Shown here: one piece after another, positions 7,201-64,000 of the stretch
Layout: every line of letters begins with the position of its first letter
How positions within the stretch are numbered: the stretch's first letter is position 1
Assembly: GCA_946811185.2 (NCBI GenBank)
Contig: OX328096.1
Location: forward strand, 20,277,881-20,341,880
Length of the DNA stretch: 64,000 nt
From: Hippopus hippopus
Lineage: Eukaryota; Mollusca; Bivalvia; Cardiida; Cardiidae
Direction of reading: 5' to 3'
Translations under genes and position numbers: made by a program
The notes under the pieces: model-generated
Told to the model about the DNA's origin: nothing
The model's input: the letters and a program-made list of their open reading frames with translations, nothing else
Database searches by the model: none

Positions 7201-10200
7201 AAACTGAACTCAAACAGATATTTCTATGACATCTTCCTGTCTATGCATGCAAAAGACAGTTACAAAAACAGTGAAGTAGGTCCATCTTTGTTGTATGAGT
7301 CGCTGCAATGGATTAGTTGTCCCAAGTAAATTGAACCAACCACAAGGCATGTTGCAATTTAGCATACACGTCAGGTAACAAATTAGGGGTGGCTGACCTG
7401 AAAAGATTTGTCCTTGAAAGGTAAGCAAACGTTGCGAGAAAAAGGAAAAAATGCTGGTCACCACCATTTTCTCCTTTCCCACCATGTTTTCAAAAGCCTT
7501 TTCCTCTAAGGTTAATAAAATTGGGTTTGTGTGGTAAATGGTTTTAACTATATTTAGCCCCTCACCTGTTTTGCGCACAGGATATGGAGACTTCACTGGT
7601 GTGATAAAAGCACTACCCGTATCTGATGACACAGAAATACCTGAGTCCTGACTGTTCTTATTGTCCTGAAAAAACAAGAAGAATTCATTGATTGAATGGT
7701 GTTTTATGCCACTTTGAATATTATTTCAGTCATATCACAGCGACAGCTCATATCTTCATGTGAGTCCAGGGTTTCACCAGTTAGGCTCGGGTCTAAAGTG
7801 TCTTTCCCAAGGGACACTCCAACAAAAAATCCTGTGCTTAGAGTGAGGTTACAACCAAGGGCCAAAGTTACGACTTTTTACCACTGAACCATGCATGACC
7901 ATGATGAAAAAAGATGACAAAATACATGTAAAATGTATTAGAACTTTAGATCTTAACCTTTTAGCTTATTCTCATGTATTAATGACCTGAGGATGAAACA
8001 TTTTCTCCTTTTCCCACTATGTTTTCTATCTTATCAGAGAATTCAGTCCACCTGTACCACTTCTGAATTTATCATCTGCAGATGTTTTGATTTTGGCAGA
8101 GATTAAGAATTTGTTGTTATGGAAAAGGTTCAAGCAGCAGCAGGGGGTGGGATATTAAACTAGGTCAAAAGTTGCCAAGAAGCTCTTGACTTTTTACAGT
8201 TTACCTCTTATCAAATACAATTTTATTCTGCCAGTGACTAACATTTTGACAGGCTGTACAATAACAGACTGTCATCTTCACAGTAATTTCCATACTTTTA
8301 AAAAGTGCAATTTAAATCAAAAGGCATTTTAACATCCACATTGTTTACTGTTGGCTGCTATTGGGCCTTTAATGACCCAGAAGAAGAACCCTTTTGAAAA
8401 CATTGTGGGAAAAAGAGAAAATGCTGGTAACAGCATTTTCTCTTTTTTCCAATGTTTTCTATTTTATCAATCAAAGACGGAGTCCAAGATCTGAGCCATG
8501 TCACCTTTAAAGTTTTGTTGTCTGCAAATGCTTTCAATTTTGACTAGTCTACCTTTCAGTCATGTGGTAACGAGTTAAAGCAAGCTGCAACCTTTTCCAT
8601 GTCAGATTCAGGGCTTGCAAATCTCAGTTTGCATTATGTCTCACAACTGATACCCATTACACATGTTAACCCTTAAAGCGCCTTTCACAACTATCACAGT
8701 TGCCTTTTCAGCCTGTGTCAGTCAAGATCAGACTGCAAAACATGCAGTCTGACCTTTGATCTACACTGTCTGCTTTCCTGAAACACTACAGACAAAAGCA
8801 ACCATGATATTGTGATTATTTGGGTCTTATTTGTAGACTAAAAAAGTCTGTTGGTTTTATTCAGGACTTTAAGGTTAAAAGGGACATGCAACTCTTTTTA
8901 GACCAGTCCATATCAAAAGCATTTGCGGTGGACAAATTAATGTGCTTACGATGTTGGGATTTGTCTCTGAAAGGGTAGAAAATTTGGGAAAATGACTTAA
9001 AATCACATCAAAATAAAATTTTAACAATTTTTTCTCCTTTCACCACAATTTTTTCGAAAGCCATCTTTCTCGGAGATGTGAAAACAAGAGATTGCTAGGA
9101 AAATGTCCTGACAACAAAATTTTAGACTCTTCTAAATCAAAAGCATTCGCAGATAACAAACTGAATCACCTTAAATGATGATTGACAGGATGGGAAGAAG
9201 CAGAGAACCAGGACTGATAAAGCTGATCAGATCCCAATTGTAATGATGTAAAACACATGAGTATTAGTGACCTACCTTTTGTCCAATATATCATCTAACT
9301 CTTTACCAAACGACAAAATTTTGGACTAGTCCAAATTGAAAGCATTTGCAGACGACAAAATAAATTTGAATCAAAAATTTAATTTTGAATTGGAAAGAGA
9401 AGGAAACATTGTGAGAAAAGGAGAAAATGCTGGTTACCAGCATTTTCTCCTTTTCCCACAATGTTTTCAAAGGCTTTCTTTTTCAGGGTCGTTAAAAGTC
9501 GGGATTGTGTGGTAAAGAGTTAAGTGCAAACAAGGTAATTGCTGACGACTGCAAGACACATATGACAGATACAGCATGATCACAAAAGCTCACCTTGGGC
9601 ACTTTGTGATCAGGTGAACTAAAAACCCTTTTTTGGAGGAGTGACCCATACCTTTAAATTTTCTTTCTCTTCACTGACCTTCTCCAATCTTTGAGCAACA
9701 GCTTTCGGTTTGTCCCCGCCTTTATCTTCATTTTCTGTCTTTCCTGTCAAACGTGTTGTCTGTTCAATGTCATCTTCATCGTCACTGTCCAGCACTTTAA
9801 CTCGTTTTCTCGCAGGGGTTTTAATGGGACTATCATCCTGGCTGTCACTCTTCCTATGAGGTAGCAATAAGTAGAATATGTCAATACACTGTCTACAATT
9901 TCAACACACAGAGGTATAGCTCTGTCCCACATGGCTGAATTTTAGACCAGACCAAAATTAGAATATTTGCAGACATGTTAGATATAGCTGTTGTCTCTTA
10001 GGAAGCCAAAAACACCATGGAAAAGGAGAATATGCTGGTTACCAGCATTTTCTCCCTTTTCTACAATGCTTTCAAAAGCATTCCTTCTTGTGATTGTCAA
10101 AAACTTAGGATGGTCTGGTAAGGGCTAATGTTTTGGGGTATAAAGAATATTACATGTAGTTGAGTCCAAAGTTTAGTAATTTGGTGTTTTCAGAAAATCA

Positions 10201-13200
10201 CATAACATTTTCTGTTTCTTTAGTTCTTCACTAAAACTTACATAGAGGGTTTCAAGTAGAACTGTGTCATTTGTAAAATTTCTAATGTCTACCCCCTGTA
10301 TAAACTTTAGCTCTTTACCAAACAACAAAATTTTGGACTCAACCAAACTGAAAGCATTTGTTGATGAGATATTAATTGTGGCTCGAACGGTGATATCTGT
10401 CTTTGAAAGAATAGAAAACGTTGTTGGAAAAGGAGAAAATGCTGGTAACCAGCATTTTCTCCTCCTCCCACAATGTTTTCCAAAGCCTCCTTTTTCAGAG
10501 TTGTTAAAACTCAGGATTGTGTGGTAAAGAGTTAAACGAGATTTTTTTTGCAAAGATATATTTGCTGATACATACTTTAACATACAACATGACTTAGTGT
10601 CTTCTTGTGGAAGAAAACATGAAAACTTGAAAACTTTAAAATTTTATACATGCACTTCGCCTACACAAAAGTCCATGAAAATCAGAAAATAATTCAAATA
10701 CAGTTTTATTCTCAATTGAAGCAAATTAAATTAACTCTTTATTAGACAACAAAATCTTAGACTTGTCCAACTAGAAAGCATTTGCAGATAACAAATGTAA
10801 CTCAGAAAGTCTTTCAAAGGGTAGAAGACATTTTAGACAATCGACAAAAGCCTTCTTTTTCAGGGTTGTTAAACTTAAAAATAGATATTGTTTGGTAAAC
10901 TTAAGACTTGAATTGAGCGGAAAAAAATATGAATACCTATCAAATTACAAACCTTTTCTCTCCACTGTCTGGTTTGACTTTATTTCCTGTCTTTGTCTTT
11001 GGTGAAAAAAACGACCTGTAAAATAAGCAGGACAGGACTTAACTCTTTACCACACAATCGCGACTTTTAACAACTCTGAGAAAGAAAGCTTTTGAAAACA
11101 TTGTAGGAAAAGGAGAAAATGCTGGTAACCAGCATTTTCTCCTTTTCCCACAATGTTTTCTACCCTTCCAAAATCAAATTTCAATTTTTGAGTCACATTT
11201 ATTTTGTCGTCTGCAAATGCTTTCAATTTGGACCAGTCCAAAATTTTGTCGCTTGGTAAAGAGTTAACTCATAGACATTCACAAAATAAAATACATTTGA
11301 GCTATGCTCTGTGAAATGGGAGTTTAATGCACCTACAAAAAGTACTGACCAAGGTCAGCCTGTGCAATCCTGTTACCCAGGGTTCTTGGGTTAGAATCCC
11401 ATGCCCACTGCACTTTATAAACTGTATATACAAAAATTTTCACCAATCACTGTGACCTTGTAATATGAGCTGGCAAACAAGGTTTTGTACAAGACATGTT
11501 AGCTGTTCATGGCAACCATTTGTGCCAAATTATTTGAAATCCATCAATGTAGATGTAAGGGAGATAACTAGCACTCAGGTCAGAGTTATCTTTCTGTAGC
11601 GTGACACCCTAATTCATTTTCTTAGCAGCTCAACTGACATTATAAAAGACTCCTTTGGTTAAAGAGTTATGGCCTGCACAAGATTTGACCACCCATGAGA
11701 TCACTGAAAATAGATGGAGTCAATTCTTGAATGCGCCTGTCCTTCTTGATGCCCAAAGTAACCTTATCATTATCACCAGTTTTGACCCTAAGAAAATTTA
11801 ACAACAGGGGAGATACCTCAAAAATACAGTCAGAGTTATCTTTCTTGTATGCAACATACCTACTTAATAACCGTCACAGTCTGACGAAGTAACATGAAAA
11901 TATATCAACAGGTTAGATACTGGCCTACTGAAAATTTGACATTTGTGTGAGATAACTCAAATAGTCAATTGAGAACTATGACCTTGATTTTTAACCTGGT
12001 GACACAGTTCTTGCATGCAACACATCATCTATCCTTGGTGATCTTTTGTGCCAAAATATTTTGAAATCCAACAAAGAGGGCTGCACACAAACAACCATCA
12101 TTACCATAAAAGTTGCAAAAATCGACAAAGTTCAACTAAGTACTGTGACCTTGACCTTTCAGCTAGCAAAATGGTCTTAGCACATGACACATCGTCTATC
12201 CATGGTGGTAAGTTGTACCATATTATTCAGAAATCAAAGCATGCATGTCACATTTACTGGCCAGACAGGAACACCTGTCATCACTATAACTGAAGCAAGT
12301 ATTGACAAAGTTCAACCAAGTACTGTGATCTTGATCTTTGAGCTTGCAACAAAGTTGTTGCACTTGACACTTCATCGTACATGGTAACCTTTTGTGCAAA
12401 ATTTTTTTAGAAACAGACCATACACCTGGAAATTATTGGCTGAACAGGCTATAATTTTAGTAAACATTGACAAAGTTCAACCAAGCACTGTGACCTTGAC
12501 CTTTGAGCTGGCGACACAGCTGACACATCATCTATCCATAGTAACCACTTGTGTCAAATTATTTTACAATCGGACCATACATCTGGACGGCAACTGCAAG
12601 ACAGGAACACCTGTTAGTCTCAATAATGAGATGTTTACGGTGCTGCTTTTCATATTTGGACAATTAAGTACTGTCATAAGTCCCAGTGTTCAATCTAGCT
12701 TTGCTTGTAAGGGGGGGCAGGATGGGCCCACACACATTGAAATAGGAGGCCATTTTGGAAAACTGGGGGCCACACATAAAAAAAATAATACTTTGTACTG
12801 AAACGTTAACCTTTTTATTGAACAAGTATATTCTCATTCATATACATGTATCTATGAATACCATGCAAATAAACTTGAAACACTGCAGAAATTATCAGTT
12901 ATTGACGCAACCTTGTTTCCACCATTAATGTAATCCTGAAAAATGATAAAAATATGTTTGTCAATGGTAAACTGTTGAAAATTCTGATATCCTGTCACAG
13001 AGGGATTTAAGTTTCCCATTAATCACTCAAACTAGAGTTTAATTTTCTCTTCATAAACTAACCAACTTTGGAACTAATAGTCCGGGAGCCATTTTGGTTG
13101 AAACTCGCATTTCTTTGGGATTTTATTATCGTCGCTTGAACGAAGGGTAGGCACTGGCCCGATTGTGCTTTCCAAAGTAATATTTTCAACAGCTTTGCCT

Positions 13201-16200: not shown

Positions 16201-19200
16201 CATGACTCTCTTATATGGGGGTAATTTGACCCAAAAATGACCCCTTTCAAATGAAGAAAAGAAGGCAAACATTGAAATTTTGGGGGTCATTTAGAAAATT
16301 TGGGGGGTCAGAATTCAAAGAAATAGGGGGTCATGGAAAACCCTGATTTCAGCTTAAGGGAAAAAAGGTTGCCTTATGATTTTAAGGTGCATTAAGTGTG
16401 CTGTCAATTACCAAACTTGTTAATATCATTGACGGTAGTTTTTCTCTTGCGATATACTGAAGACAACGGGTGGTCAAGTTGATCAGAGCGGCAATTTTGT
16501 TTGCAATTAAATACACTTTCTATCAGTTTACCGACACACCCTTTGACATGGCAGATGTACTAATTCACTTTAATATGGCTAAATCAAAAGTTGATTTAAT
16601 CAACATAAATTGCCTTTTGAGATGAACTTCCTAAACAGTACAGAACAGAAGTTAGACTTTTTCGTAATTGAAATGTACTTATATTGAGGATTACAGTGAG
16701 GAATACACGTCAATATGCCTATTGAAGATAGTTTAAATCCAAGATTAAACTGCATGTTATTTGCAATCTGATCTATATCACACATTCAGCATATTCTTCA
16801 CACACCAAGGGCTAACCCTCTAACACACAATCCCGAGTTTTAACGACCCTGAGAAAGCTTTAGAAAATACTGTGGGAGAAGGAGAAAATCCTACTAACCA
16901 GCATTTTCTTCTTTTCCCACAATGTTTTCAAATCCCATTACTTGTGCCACATTTACCATGTCCTTTGGAAATGCTTCCAATTTGGATCTGTCTATATTTT
17001 TTGTCGTGTTGTAAAGGGTTAAGATAAACATCAAACTGAAACATTGATGATAAGACTTTAGTGCCACTTTCTGGATGTGCAGAGGTTATTAACCCTTTAC
17101 CAGACAACAAAATTTTAGCCTTGTCCAAATTGAAAGCATTTGCAGACGACTATTTCAGTGTCGCTCAAATGGTGCAATCTTTCTTTGACTGGGTAGAAAA
17201 CATTGTGGGAAAAGGAGAAAATGCTGTTTACCGGCATTTTCTCCTTTTCCTTCAATGTTTTCAAAAGGTTTCTTTTCCAGGGTCGTCATAAGTTGGCATT
17301 GTGAGGTAAAGGGTTAAACAAGGTTAGATAATCAAGTGAACATATTTTCTTTTAATAAGTATTTCATATACATCTATTTCTACCTTTGTTTTCCATTTAA
17401 AAACATTTTGTGTATCTTTCAGAATCTTTCAGAGGGAAAAAAACTATAGAATTAATTAATCCATTGTGTGATGTAGCGCTGATCAGAACTCTTTGCATGT
17501 CCCATTGTTAGTCATTATCATAATGCAAACTTGTATCCTCTGCGTGTATCTCAAGTCAGTGGTTCATGTTCACAAAGCATATATTTTAAACTTTTTTCTT
17601 CAATTCAAGCATTTAAAACAAAAAATTAATAAATACTCTCTCATCCCTCCAACGTTAACAGTGGCTTATTTGGGAGCCGAAATAGGAGACAGCAATGCTG
17701 CATATCAGGTAAAATAAATGCAATGACCTGATTGGTTAAGCATCAATTTCCACGGATCCATGTATTTTCCCCCCTCCCCCGCCATGTTAGAGCACTTGCT
17801 CTGGGCGAGGGACCCCGAGATCAAATCCCGCACAGGCCACCCCCCCCCCAAGACATTTACTTTTGTATTCAACAGTGCTCTATCGTGCGCACAATGGTTT
17901 GGCATAATACCGGCAAACGCCCCTCCACTATACAGCCATATGCATACATGTGGTATTGTTTTACGAATTAAAAGATAAATTAATGAAATTATGTGCTTTA
18001 TTCCGTAAACGGGATGAATCCATAAGAAATCAAAATTCTTTTGACACACGATATAGATTTTCATGGGTTTTCGCGATATAGTGGAGGGGCGTTTTCAGGT
18101 ATACATGGATCCATGGAAATCGATATTTGACCAATCAGGTCATCGCATTTATTTTACCCGATGTACAGCCTTGTTGTCTGCTATTTCGGCTCCCAAACAA
18201 ACGACTGTTAACGTTGGAGGGATGCGATAGGTTTCATTCATTTTGCGTTTTAAACCTTTGAATTTAAGAAAAAGTTTAAAATATGTGCTTTGCGAACGTG
18301 TACCGCTGACATGAGATCACACAGAGGCTGTAGACAAGGTTGAATTATGATAATGACTGAAAATCGCACATATGCAAAGAGTTCTGATCAGCGCTACATT
18401 ACACAATGGATTAATTAATGCTTTAGATTTTCCCCCTCTGAAAGATTTTTTAAAGAGACAAAAATGTTTTAAAGTGGAAAACAAAGGTAAAAATAGATCT
18501 ATATGAATACTTATAAAAATAGAATATGTTTACTTAAATATCTAACCTTTTTCAGTAACCTATGCACATCCAAAAAGTGGCATTTGTCATCAATGTTTCA
18601 GTTCGACGTTAATCTTAACCCTTGGTGCATGAAGAATATGCTGAATATGTAGATATAGATCAGGTTGCAAATAACATGCAGTTTAATCTTGGATTAAAAG
18701 AATCTGCTATTTACAATAAGCATATTGACGTGTATTCCTCACGACGTATTCCTTACAAACAGTAGAATTCAATTTTGAAATTAAGTCTAACTCTGTTCTG
18801 TACCGGTGGAAGTTCAGCTAAAAAGGCAACTTATGTTAATTAAATATACTTTTTACTTAGTCGTATTAAAGTGGATAAGCACATCTGCCATTTCACAGGA
18901 TGTGTCGGTAAACTCTAAACTGATAAGAAGTGTGTTTGATTGCAAACCAATTTGCCGCTCTAATCAACTTGACCACCCGTTATCTTCAGTATATCATAAG
19001 ATAAAACAAACTACTGTCACTGATATTAACAAGTTTGTTAATTGACAGCACACTTAACACATTTTAAAATCATGAGACAACCCTTTTTCCCTTAACCTGA
19101 AATTGAAATTTTTCATAGTCAAGTCATAGTCAATTTTTCATAAACTTACACCTCTCTGTAGAATCAGACAATCTATAATGTTTTCGAAATGCTTGTAATT

Positions 19201-21678: not shown

Positions 21679-21800
21679 TTAATTCTTTGCCATATGACAA
21701 ATGTTTAGACTTGTCCAAAGTGAAAGCATTTGCAGACGAAAAATTAAATGTGACTCAGTTGATGCTATTTGTCCTTAGAAGGGCGGAAAACATTGTGGGA
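21679..21800 (-). repeat. Family A copy, truncated in the hairpin
   Basis: Reverse; TTAATTCTTTGCC, GCATTTGCAGACG, then breaks off after AACATTGTGGGAAAAG. Confidence 0.7.
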
Positions 21801-23134
21801 AAAGAATTGTGGGAATTATTTGGAAAAGGGTATAAAGGCGTAATTCATATCTATGTAAACACATATAGACGCTTCGGTGTTCTTTTGAAATGAAATCCAC
21901 AAATCAAAGCGCTGACAGCGCTGGAAGGACAGTTTTCTCAGCAGAAAGGCTTCTTTCCGTCATTGTTTTGTTCACGGTCTTTATGTATTACATTTTTTCG
22001 ATATACTGCAGAGAAGGTGCAATGTTTCTGTTTTAACAGAGGGTCGGCCTTATTTAAAGAACAAACTCAGAAACTGTAACGACCAATTGAAACAAGCACA
22101 GCAAAAATAAGAATTTTTAACTTTTATTTCTATGGCCGGTATAGCTAAAAACAACAAAACTATGGTCTAGTAAAATCATATTGTTCTATAGGATCAGTTT
22201 AAAAAGACAAGAAACATGAAAATATGTTTGATTATTATTTCTTGCTGTCACGGTAAAAACTGACAAAATTCAAAGCTGGTGCTCTGTGCGAATTCCAAAG
22301 CTTGCTCCAAGAAATGTTTCAAATCCTCTCAACACCAATCTGTTTTTAACTTGATAAATCCAGAAAGTTTTGACACAGGCTGGTGTTAAAATGATTAATG
22401 CACAGACTTTTCGGTAAAGGATTAACCACTTTGTTCAAATAATTCCCAATTAAAAAGTGACAAGCAACAAGGAAATAAAGTAGCGAAACCAATCAGCTAT
22501 CTTAGTTGATAAACTCAAAATCAGAATAAAGTGGTCACCCAAAGAATAGATAATAGCTCTTCAAACTGGTCTTATCGAAAGCACCAGACGACGAATAACA
22601 TCAGCAGGGATCCGTCTGTATGTGATTAGTAAATTGTTTTGCAGTAGGCAATAGATCTAGTCTGCTTATGTAAGTTTCACAGGGGACAACGTGTAATTCT
22701 GATACAACTAAGTGCCCTTGAAACGACTACTTGTGACATTCCTGTGGTCAGCATCCCTAAAGCTCTTCTTGGCAGAGATATTGAAAGCTTCATCATAGTG
22801 GAACACATCTTACTTTATTGAACTCTAGAGTATCCTTTCAAGTGGTGCTATGACCACTACATATCGATCGAGGACACAATTTAGATTGTAACTTGCTAAG
22901 CCTTTAGGCAAATAAATTTTTGGGTTGATCAGCTTTTATTTTTCTTTAGCGACTGATAAATTTAACAATCAAAAGTCACTTTTTCGTTAAAAAGAGCCGA
23001 CGAAGTCAACATCCAAGTATTTCAGTGGATGTCCCTAGGTTGTGAAGTACTGGATTGGAAGATATCGCTGTTTTGCTGATTCAATTGATGCGTTCGCATG
23101 AAAATCAAGATCAGATGCTAGTTTTAGACTAACG

Positions 23135-25700: not shown

Positions 25701-25929
25701 TTAACCCTTTACCAAACAATCCCTGGTTTTTACGACCCAGAGGAAGAAGCCTTCTGAAAACATTGTGGGAAAGGGAGAAAATGCTGGTAACCAGCATTTT
25801 CTCCTTTTCCCAAAATGTTTTCTACTCTTCCAAAGTCAAGTTTCAATTTTTGAGTCATATTTATTTTGTCGTCTGTAAATGCTTTCAATTTGGACAAGTC
25901 CAAAATTTTGCCGTTTGGTAAAGAGTTAA
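25701..25929 (+). repeat. Family A copy, full length
   Basis: Forward; TTAA both ends; hairpin intact with GGTAACC centre. Its right TTAA is shared with an element D copy. Confidence 0.87.
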
Positions 25930-30235: not shown

Positions 30236-30439
30236 ATAACCCTTAGGCTGCTAAGCGTAACTCACCGACCTTTTGTGGATAGCATAGGTCAAGATCAGAC
30301 TGCACAATCTGATCTTAGATCTACACTGTCCAATAAGGAGATATCTTTCCTCCAAAACTGCCTTTGCAATAGGAAAATTTAGGTTTTCACGATTGGCTTG
30401 AAAGTTTTGTTTCTTTTATTTAGCAGGATTACTTATTAA
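30236..30439. mobile_element. Element B copy
   Basis: Starts ATAACCCTTAGGCTGCTAAG, ends TAGCAGGATTACTTATTAA; core AAGATCAGACTGCACAATCTGATCTT lost half its palindrome. Right TTAA shared with the next A copy. Confidence 0.75.
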
Positions 30440-30664
30440 CCTTTTACCAGATGACAAAATTTTAGACATATCCAAATTGAAAGCCTCTGCAGACGACAAA
30501 TTGAACAATGCTCAAAAGATCTATTTTGTTTTAGAAAAGGTAGAAAACATTGTGGGAAAAGGAGAAAATGCTGTTTATCAACATTTTCTCCTTTTCTCAC
30601 AATGTTTTCAAAAGGCTTTTTCCTCAGGGTCGTTAAAAGTTGGGACTGTGTGGTAAAGAGTTAA
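30436..30664 (-). repeat. Family A copy, full length
   Basis: Reverse; TTAA both ends; hairpin with a few changes (GCTGTTTATCAAC). Confidence 0.83.
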
Positions 30665-31222: not shown

Positions 31223-60481
<29,259 letters not shown>

Positions 60482-62714: not shown

Positions 62715-62947
62715 TTAACTTTTTACCACACAATGCTGAGGTTTAATAACTTTGAGAAAGAAGCATTTCGAAAATACTGTTGGAAAAAGGAGAAAATGCT
62801 GGTAACCAGCATTTTCTCCTTTTCCTACAATGTTTTCTACCCTGTCAAAGACTGATTCCATCATTCGAGCCACATTTAAATTGTCGTCTGCAAATACTTT
62901 CAATTTTCAAGACAAGTCTACATTTGTGTCGTTTGATAAAGAGTTAA
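62715..62947 (+). repeat. Family A copy, full length
   Basis: Forward; TTAA both ends; hairpin near perfect. Confidence 0.86.
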
Positions 62948-63361
62948 GAGTGCCATCTTTACCATCTCTGGAATGTCTCATGTTTGTGTATGTAGATAAA
63001 TTTATCTTTATTTCTGTTTTGCTTTTAATGCTCATGAAGTTTTATTGCATAGCACATGTTTAGTCTATCTGCCCACTACTCATAAATGATAAATTGTGTG
63101 AAAGAGAAAACAGTGTGTACATAAAGATTGCTTTTTGTTATTATGTTCTCTGATTGAGAAAGCATGGCAATGTATAAATATGGAGAGCCTTCTTGTTGCC
63201 ACATCATTTTATTGAGAGAATAAAATACTGTGTAAATATGGAAGACAGTGTTATTATGTTTCAGAGAGTATACATGTAACAGAAAATATAGACTGCTTGT
63301 TTATCATATAGATAACAAAGCATGGTGTATGCATACAGGGTCTTGTTATCAGGTAAGCTCA

Positions 63362-63590
63362 TTAACTCTTTACCAAACGACAAAATTTTGGACTCGACCA
63401 AATTGAAAGCATTTGCAGACGACAAAATAATTGTAGCTAAAATAATGATTTTTGTCTTTGATGGGGTAGAAAACATTGTGGGAAAAGGAGAAAATGCTGG
63501 TTACCAGCATTTTCTCCTTTTCCCACAATGTTTTTTAAAGGCCTTTTCCTCAGCGTCGTTAAAACACGGGATTGTGTGGTAAAGAGTTAA
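63362..63590 (-). repeat. Family A copy, best-preserved example
   Basis: Reverse; TTAA 63362-63365 and 63587-63590. The 65-nt palindrome at 63470-63534 is perfect around a central T. Confidence 0.92.
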
Positions 63591-63726
63591 GAGAATATAG
63601 AACGCTGTGTTACATGCATATTTTTTCATTCTCTGAAACATGATAATGCAGTCTTCCATGTTCTCTCAATGAACTTACCTGATAACAAGACCCTGAATTT
63701 TTATACCATATTATATTATCTACTTA

Positions 63727-63893
63727 AATAATCTTCTTTCTATCGTGGTATATCGTTCAATAAACCACAGTCATGAGTTATGAGGCACAATAAATAATTC
63801 ATGAGGGCGATAGCCAGATTGGTTTATTCATTGTGCCTCATAACTCACAACGTGGTTTATTGAACAATAAACCACGATAGAAAGAAGATTATT
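63727..63893. repeat. Long hairpin with about 70-nt arms
   Basis: AATAATCTTCTTTCTATCGTGG and GAGTTATGAGGCACAATAAA on the left pair with the right arm; loop contains GAGGGCGATAGCC. Unlike family A. Confidence 0.82.
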
Positions 63894-64000
63894 TCGATTC
63901 TAACATGAACAACTCTTAATCAAAGGAAAACAAGTTTATACTTAGAGTAAAAACGCTGATGCAGATTATATTCCATTGAATAACTTACTTACTTTATACA

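Follow-up and report, generated by a model that had tools for sequence, protein, structure and literature searches.

A central palindrome in an abundant TTAA-bounded MITE, constant among source copies and decaying after insertion

The window, by which we mean the whole 64-kb stretch of DNA analysed here, looks eukaryotic, and only two exons, C1q and Ost-alpha/TMEM184-like, were recognised in it by Pfam. The first is a C1q-domain exon at 478-894 (PF00386, E = 2e-26); the second, at 59792-60481, matches Solute_trans_a (PF03619, E = 1e-10) and is presumably TMEM184-like. A Pfam scan of 24 of the window's 51 ORFs of at least 90 amino acids revealed no transposase. A tandem array with a 166-bp unit, present in about 5.7 copies, occupies 58497-59451, and an inverted repeat with 43-nt arms that are 95% complementary, containing a second pair of 24-nt arms, lies at 63726-63894.

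Almost a quarter of the window (15,774 bp, 24.6%) consists of pieces of a single element. A profile search, in which the alignment profile and the consensus were derived from the same copies (35 seed copies from the window), returned 93 non-overlapping pieces in both orientations, 52 of which cover at least 195 of the 229 model positions; after nested pieces were joined, 90 copies remained (18 excised as described below and 72 left in place). The preliminary description had put the number at about 80, so that its claim of abundance stands with a corrected count, and the presence of copies in both orientations was borne out. The consensus of the window's copies is 229 bp long, is bordered by TTAA on both sides and has ends of the form C[T/C]CTTTACCA. 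The focal copy at 63362-63590 on the plus strand, recognised by its sequence, the profile search and excision, runs from TTAA to TTAA over 229 bp as TTAACTCTTTACCA...TGGTAAAGAGTTAA, with the left TTAA and 10-bp terminal inverted repeat (TIR) at 63362-63375 and the right TIR and TTAA at 63577-63590, both annotated on the plus strand. The focal unit and the consensus thus agree with the earlier account of full copies of about 229 bp, bounded by TTAA and carrying short inverted ends, and its assignment to a strongly amplified MITE of the piggyBac type is supported. A chance origin of the element is ruled out by the profile census together with the stability of its fold relative to shuffles, given below. 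The focal copy itself lies within a larger inverted-repeat structure at 63191-63722, with arm pairs at 63309-63363/63668-63722 (82%), 63235-63267/63630-63662 (85%) and 63191-63220/63661-63690 (77%), which is apparently a different repeat that was the target of the focal insertion.

Searches for relatives of the element found none in the viral contigs, GTDB genome contigs or phages covered, an Rfam scan gave nothing at gathering score, and no description of it was recognised in the open-licence papers searched, although the family may already carry a name in repeat libraries. Spliced leaders with a 10-mer identical to the end motif (PMC5111886) were taken as a chance match.

Excision of copies with TTAA at both ends, leaving a single TTAA behind, removed 18 copies in two rounds. 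These included copies at 1302-1532, 17089-17317, 30436-30664, 48800-49029 and 57148-57376 on the plus strand and at 11039-11267, 25701-25929, 40573-40797, 42728-42949 and 62715-62947 on the minus strand. Removal of younger copies also allowed five split older copies to rejoin, each scoring above its pieces. The copy at 52020-52247 (minus) splits an older one at 51968-52420 (minus; joined score 174.9 versus 126.0 and 30.5 for the pieces), and the copy at 47517-47746 (minus), which has no arm mismatches, splits 47347-47768 (minus; score raised from 83.3 to 98.7). Likewise, 49679-49907 (plus) is nested in 49524-49964 (minus; 108.6 to 137.4) and 50929-51145 (minus) in 50878-51197 (plus; 66.4 joined versus 17.4 and 38.6), while a tandem pair sharing one TTAA at 37515-37969 (plus; 37515-37743 and 37740-37969) splits an older copy at 37465-38125 (plus; 131.1 versus 11.0 and 104.8). 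The rejoining of these five hosts shows that the element inserts at TTAA, ends up with TTAA on both sides and was active at different times. No preference for insertion beside its own ends was apparent, since the 10 shared TTAA junctions compare with 12.4 (sd 3.0) expected if TTAA sites are used at random, in a calculation with 83 insertions that assumes 1.5 inner TTAA sites per copy.

At the centre of the consensus is a 67-nt palindrome, formed by 33-bp arms (model positions 108-140 and 142-174) around a single base (141). In the focal copy the left arm falls at 63469-63501 (plus), the centre at 63502 and the right arm at 63503-63535 (plus), and the inverted repeat as read from that copy has 35-nt arms, 97% complementary, with 1 nt between them. 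Folded as a single DNA strand, the consensus reaches -56.8 kcal/mol, compared with -22.8 (sd 3.4) for 200 shuffles (z -9.9). The central base is A in 6 of 46 full copies, or 8 of the 51 with complete arms, too few to judge flipping.

The palindrome diverges far less than most of the element, as the preliminary description had noticed. Mean per-position divergence among 46 full copies, with CpG columns excluded, was 0.085 in the hairpin and 0.198 in the rest of the interior (Mann-Whitney P = 2e-10), and the hairpin had the lower value whichever of the four bases stood in the consensus; between nearest-neighbour copies the values were 0.121 and 0.272. The comparison of arms with flanks that the description had proposed therefore yielded unequal divergence, lower in the hairpin, and not the equal divergence that it had named as counting against its reading. 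Its statement that the arms pair perfectly in many copies was, however, overstated: among the 51 copies in which 30 or more of the 33 arm pairs could be read, two have no mismatch, five have one and 22 have at least six. Across the 21 copies with at most two gapped model positions, divergence was 5.2% in the arms, 7.4% in the TIRs, 10.8% in the left stretch 15-64, 25.5% in the spacer 65-105 and 17.5% in the spacer 178-214, and within the same copies the arms were slightly below the TIRs (0.070 versus 0.102; 34 copies, P = 0.04). Within the interior, it is thus the palindrome only that is at least as conserved as the ends, whereas the spacers diverge more.

A mixture of subfamilies was considered as the sole cause of this contrast and rejected: k-modes clustering into 2-5 clusters lowered flank divergence only from 0.198 to 0.181-0.185, with the arms going from 0.083 to 0.075-0.083. 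The two sizeable clusters that it yielded, of 12 and 34 copies, are distinguished by 10 positions, all of them outside the 67 of the palindrome.

The arms also provide a clock. A source with a perfect palindrome produces copies whose arms are identical at birth, so the mismatch between the two arms dates each copy, and the divergence of any region can be modelled as a birth divergence s (substitutions per site) plus k times arm age. With 263 mismatches in 1659 arm pairs from 51 copies, all flanks together gave s = 0.184 (bootstrap 95% 0.160-0.212) and k = 0.66 (0.39-0.99), and a constant-ratio model with s = 0 was worse for the flanks by 21.1 log units. By region (bootstrap 95% intervals), s was 0.030 (0-0.113) for the TIRs, 0.066 (0.032-0.093) for the stretch 15-64, 0.335 (0.282-0.367) for the spacer 65-105 and 0.197 (0.159-0.237) for the spacer 178-214. 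For the arms, s was 0.002 (0-0.009), a value that shares its bases with the clock and is not independent of it, but shows that there are few paired changes between arms and consensus. In the 16 of 51 copies with at most two arm mismatches, divergence was 2.9% in the arms, 8.6% in the TIRs, 10.7% in 15-64, 27.5% in 65-105 and 18.8% in 178-214; in the 20 with at least seven, the corresponding values were 16.9%, 16.7%, 21.0%, 29.2% and 20.8%. The least-decayed copies therefore already carry the full spacer excess while the arms go on to decay from 2.9% to 16.9%, indicating that the contrast was present at insertion. Divergence of the spacers increases very little with arm age (k 0-0.67 for 65-105 and 0.04-0.74 for 178-214), which the simple model does not predict; the low values may come from saturation or from older copies lying nearer the consensus. 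Statistically, within this one window, the hairpin does not vary from one source lineage to the next and decays once a copy has inserted.

The joint behaviour of the two arms points the same way, as they drift nearly independently, with a small excess of pairing remaining. Paired double changes numbered 19, where age-matched shuffles gave 13.4 (19 was reached in 112 of 3000), and standard arm pairs numbered 1396 compared with 1384 (72 of 3000 reach the observed value); against plain shuffles, 1430 standard pairs compare with a maximum of 1429 in 2000. Maintenance of pairing under a drifting sequence is thus scarcely evident; what stays constant among sources is the sequence itself. Taken with arms that lie below the TIRs, the slight excess of pairing may reflect a small effect at the level of copies or subfamilies.

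These results bear directly on how the contrast arose. The preliminary description had suggested either recent spread or repair or selection keeping the palindrome. Recent spread alone does not explain the pattern, because sources differ in their spacers but not in the hairpin. That each inserted copy has its palindrome preserved, by repair of one arm from the other, conversion from other copies or host selection, now appears distinctly improbable. Such preservation would fit a hairpin divergence less than half that of the rest, seen among nearest neighbours as well, along with the slight within-copy excess of pairing and arms a little below the TIRs. However, simulations with protected or repair-reset arms (40 replicates each) gave s near 0 and k of 2.6-2.8, far from the observed s of 0.18 and k of 0.66, whereas simulated birth variation (40 replicates) gave s = 0.17 and k = 1.0. 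The spacer excess is moreover complete in the least-decayed copies, and arms in the most decayed class have diverged as much as the TIRs. Neither the arm clock, the simulations nor the mismatch classes, in other words, support preservation of the palindrome in individual copies.

Two further explanations are a palindrome without function and an element with coding function. The element could be a coding sequence or an exapted exon, given that the plus strand of the consensus has an open frame whose translation is matched by 7427 overlapping predicted proteins at E <= 1e-3. We regard this as extremely improbable, as divergence shows no codon-position signal (0.166, 0.150 and 0.153 at positions 1, 2 and 3), the translation contains no Pfam family up to E = 1, and copies occur in either orientation and have inserted into each other. 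At 229 bp, and with neither codon-position signal nor Pfam family, the element is short and apparently non-coding, as expected of a MITE, and the open frames of such elements appear to seed public protein sets with thousands of probably spurious predictions. A majority sequence drawn from the top 120 of the 7427 proteins departs from that of the window at 9 residues. All of these lie outside the 23 hairpin codons, where agreement with the majority is 0.93, compared with 0.77 elsewhere; because the matches were picked by similarity to the query, they serve as supporting evidence only. A hairpin devoid of function might, on the other hand, be constant because a few sources happened to share one version or because recombination spread it. 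The restriction to one window and the recovery of only two sizeable clusters are compatible with this, yet at birth the flanking spacers are highly variable and the segment between them is not, and the same pattern recurs in the predicted proteins from outside the window, similarity-chosen though they are; we therefore think it unlikely.

We propose instead that the palindrome is probably a cis-acting module of a piggyBac-type non-autonomous MITE, with a filter acting on which copies get mobilised. The TTAA target and the element's tips suggest a transposase of the piggyBac type, which would be encoded elsewhere and would move this apparently non-coding MITE in trans, inserting it at TTAA. As the statistics from this one window show, the source copies that kept transposing diversified in their spacers while the palindrome stayed constant, the end repeats nearly so and the stretch 15-64 less so; after insertion, a copy's hairpin receives no special preservation. 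The filter would then fall on mobilisable copies, and from the constancy of the palindrome among sources we infer a role in mobilisation, as a cis-acting requirement alongside the ends. How the palindrome might act is speculative: most likely it would serve within the element as a site bound by a dimeric factor, for example the cysteine-rich domain of the transposase, with a cruciform as a less likely mode. A bolder and only tentative version of this proposal would make the 67-nt palindrome a third essential cis module, its sequence conserved across source lineages no less strictly than the ends, that served as an internal assembly site for a transposase dimer or as a cruciform and helped the MITE to fill a quarter of the region.

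Comparison with known systems provides precedents for parts of this proposal. In piggyBac and piggyBat, the transposase dimer binds palindromic sequences through two of its cysteine-rich domains (PMC11707139), and this binding at the ends makes an internal dimer site our first hypothesis. These elements share with ours TTAA and palindromic sequences inside the element; in contrast, their palindromes are short (19 bp in piggyBac, of an imperfect 14-bp type in piggyBat) and located in the ends, not 67 nt and central, and they encode a transposase, as the element here appears not to (PMC11707139). The CMITEs of Acropora corals, which are TTAA MITEs whose interior is conserved more between families than their TIRs and is of unexplained origin (PMC2872659), resemble the element in their TTAA duplication, CCCTTT-type ends, non-coding character and conserved interior. 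However, a CMITE measures about 100 bp, of which 75 bp form the conserved interior, compared with 229 bp here, and the word stem 'palindrom' is absent from that paper. The right consensus tip reads CCCT inward and fits the CC[C/T]T motif given there (PMC2872659), whereas the left, CTCT, does not quite fit. The printed 60-bp CMITE core showed no similarity to the element (195 of 300 shuffles reached its score of 15), and the two thus do not share an internal core; CMITEs offer an earlier example of a conserved interior, but one to which no sequence similarity could be detected. Palindrome formation is also known among MITE-like repeats of Anopheles gambiae, where palindromic repeats make up 6 of the 32 clusters, within a group spanning 430-1678 nt; TTAA is unmentioned in the available part of that account (PMC3212995). 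In the 229-bp element described here, the ends form one module and the central palindrome another.

Sequences needed for MITE movement are usually sought at the ends, and the least variation between source lineages is here found in an internal palindrome, making it a testable candidate for what the unexplained conserved cores of coral CMITEs do. Palindrome arms can in addition serve as a built-in clock, comparable to the paired LTRs of a retroelement, by which changes that predate insertion can be told from those that followed.

Two other properties of the palindrome were considered and are not claimed. A motif in the arms that resembles the TIR at 8 of 10 bases, which might have been a trace of a dimer, gave P = 0.08 for the arm and 0.18 for the interior. 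The palindrome as a deletion hot spot was suggested by several copies that lost one arm with a breakpoint near the centre, but over all pieces 16 of 30 deletions of at least 5 bp fall in the hairpin, compared with 12.0 expected, which is not significant (P = 0.09). The right arm is mostly or wholly lost in the copies at 7998-8130, 10731-10899, 21679-21804, 31991-32130 and 32816-32952, which have one breakpoint between model positions 129 and 142 and differ in the other, and in the copy at 53646-53945 about 93 bp of other sequence breaks the palindrome near its centre.
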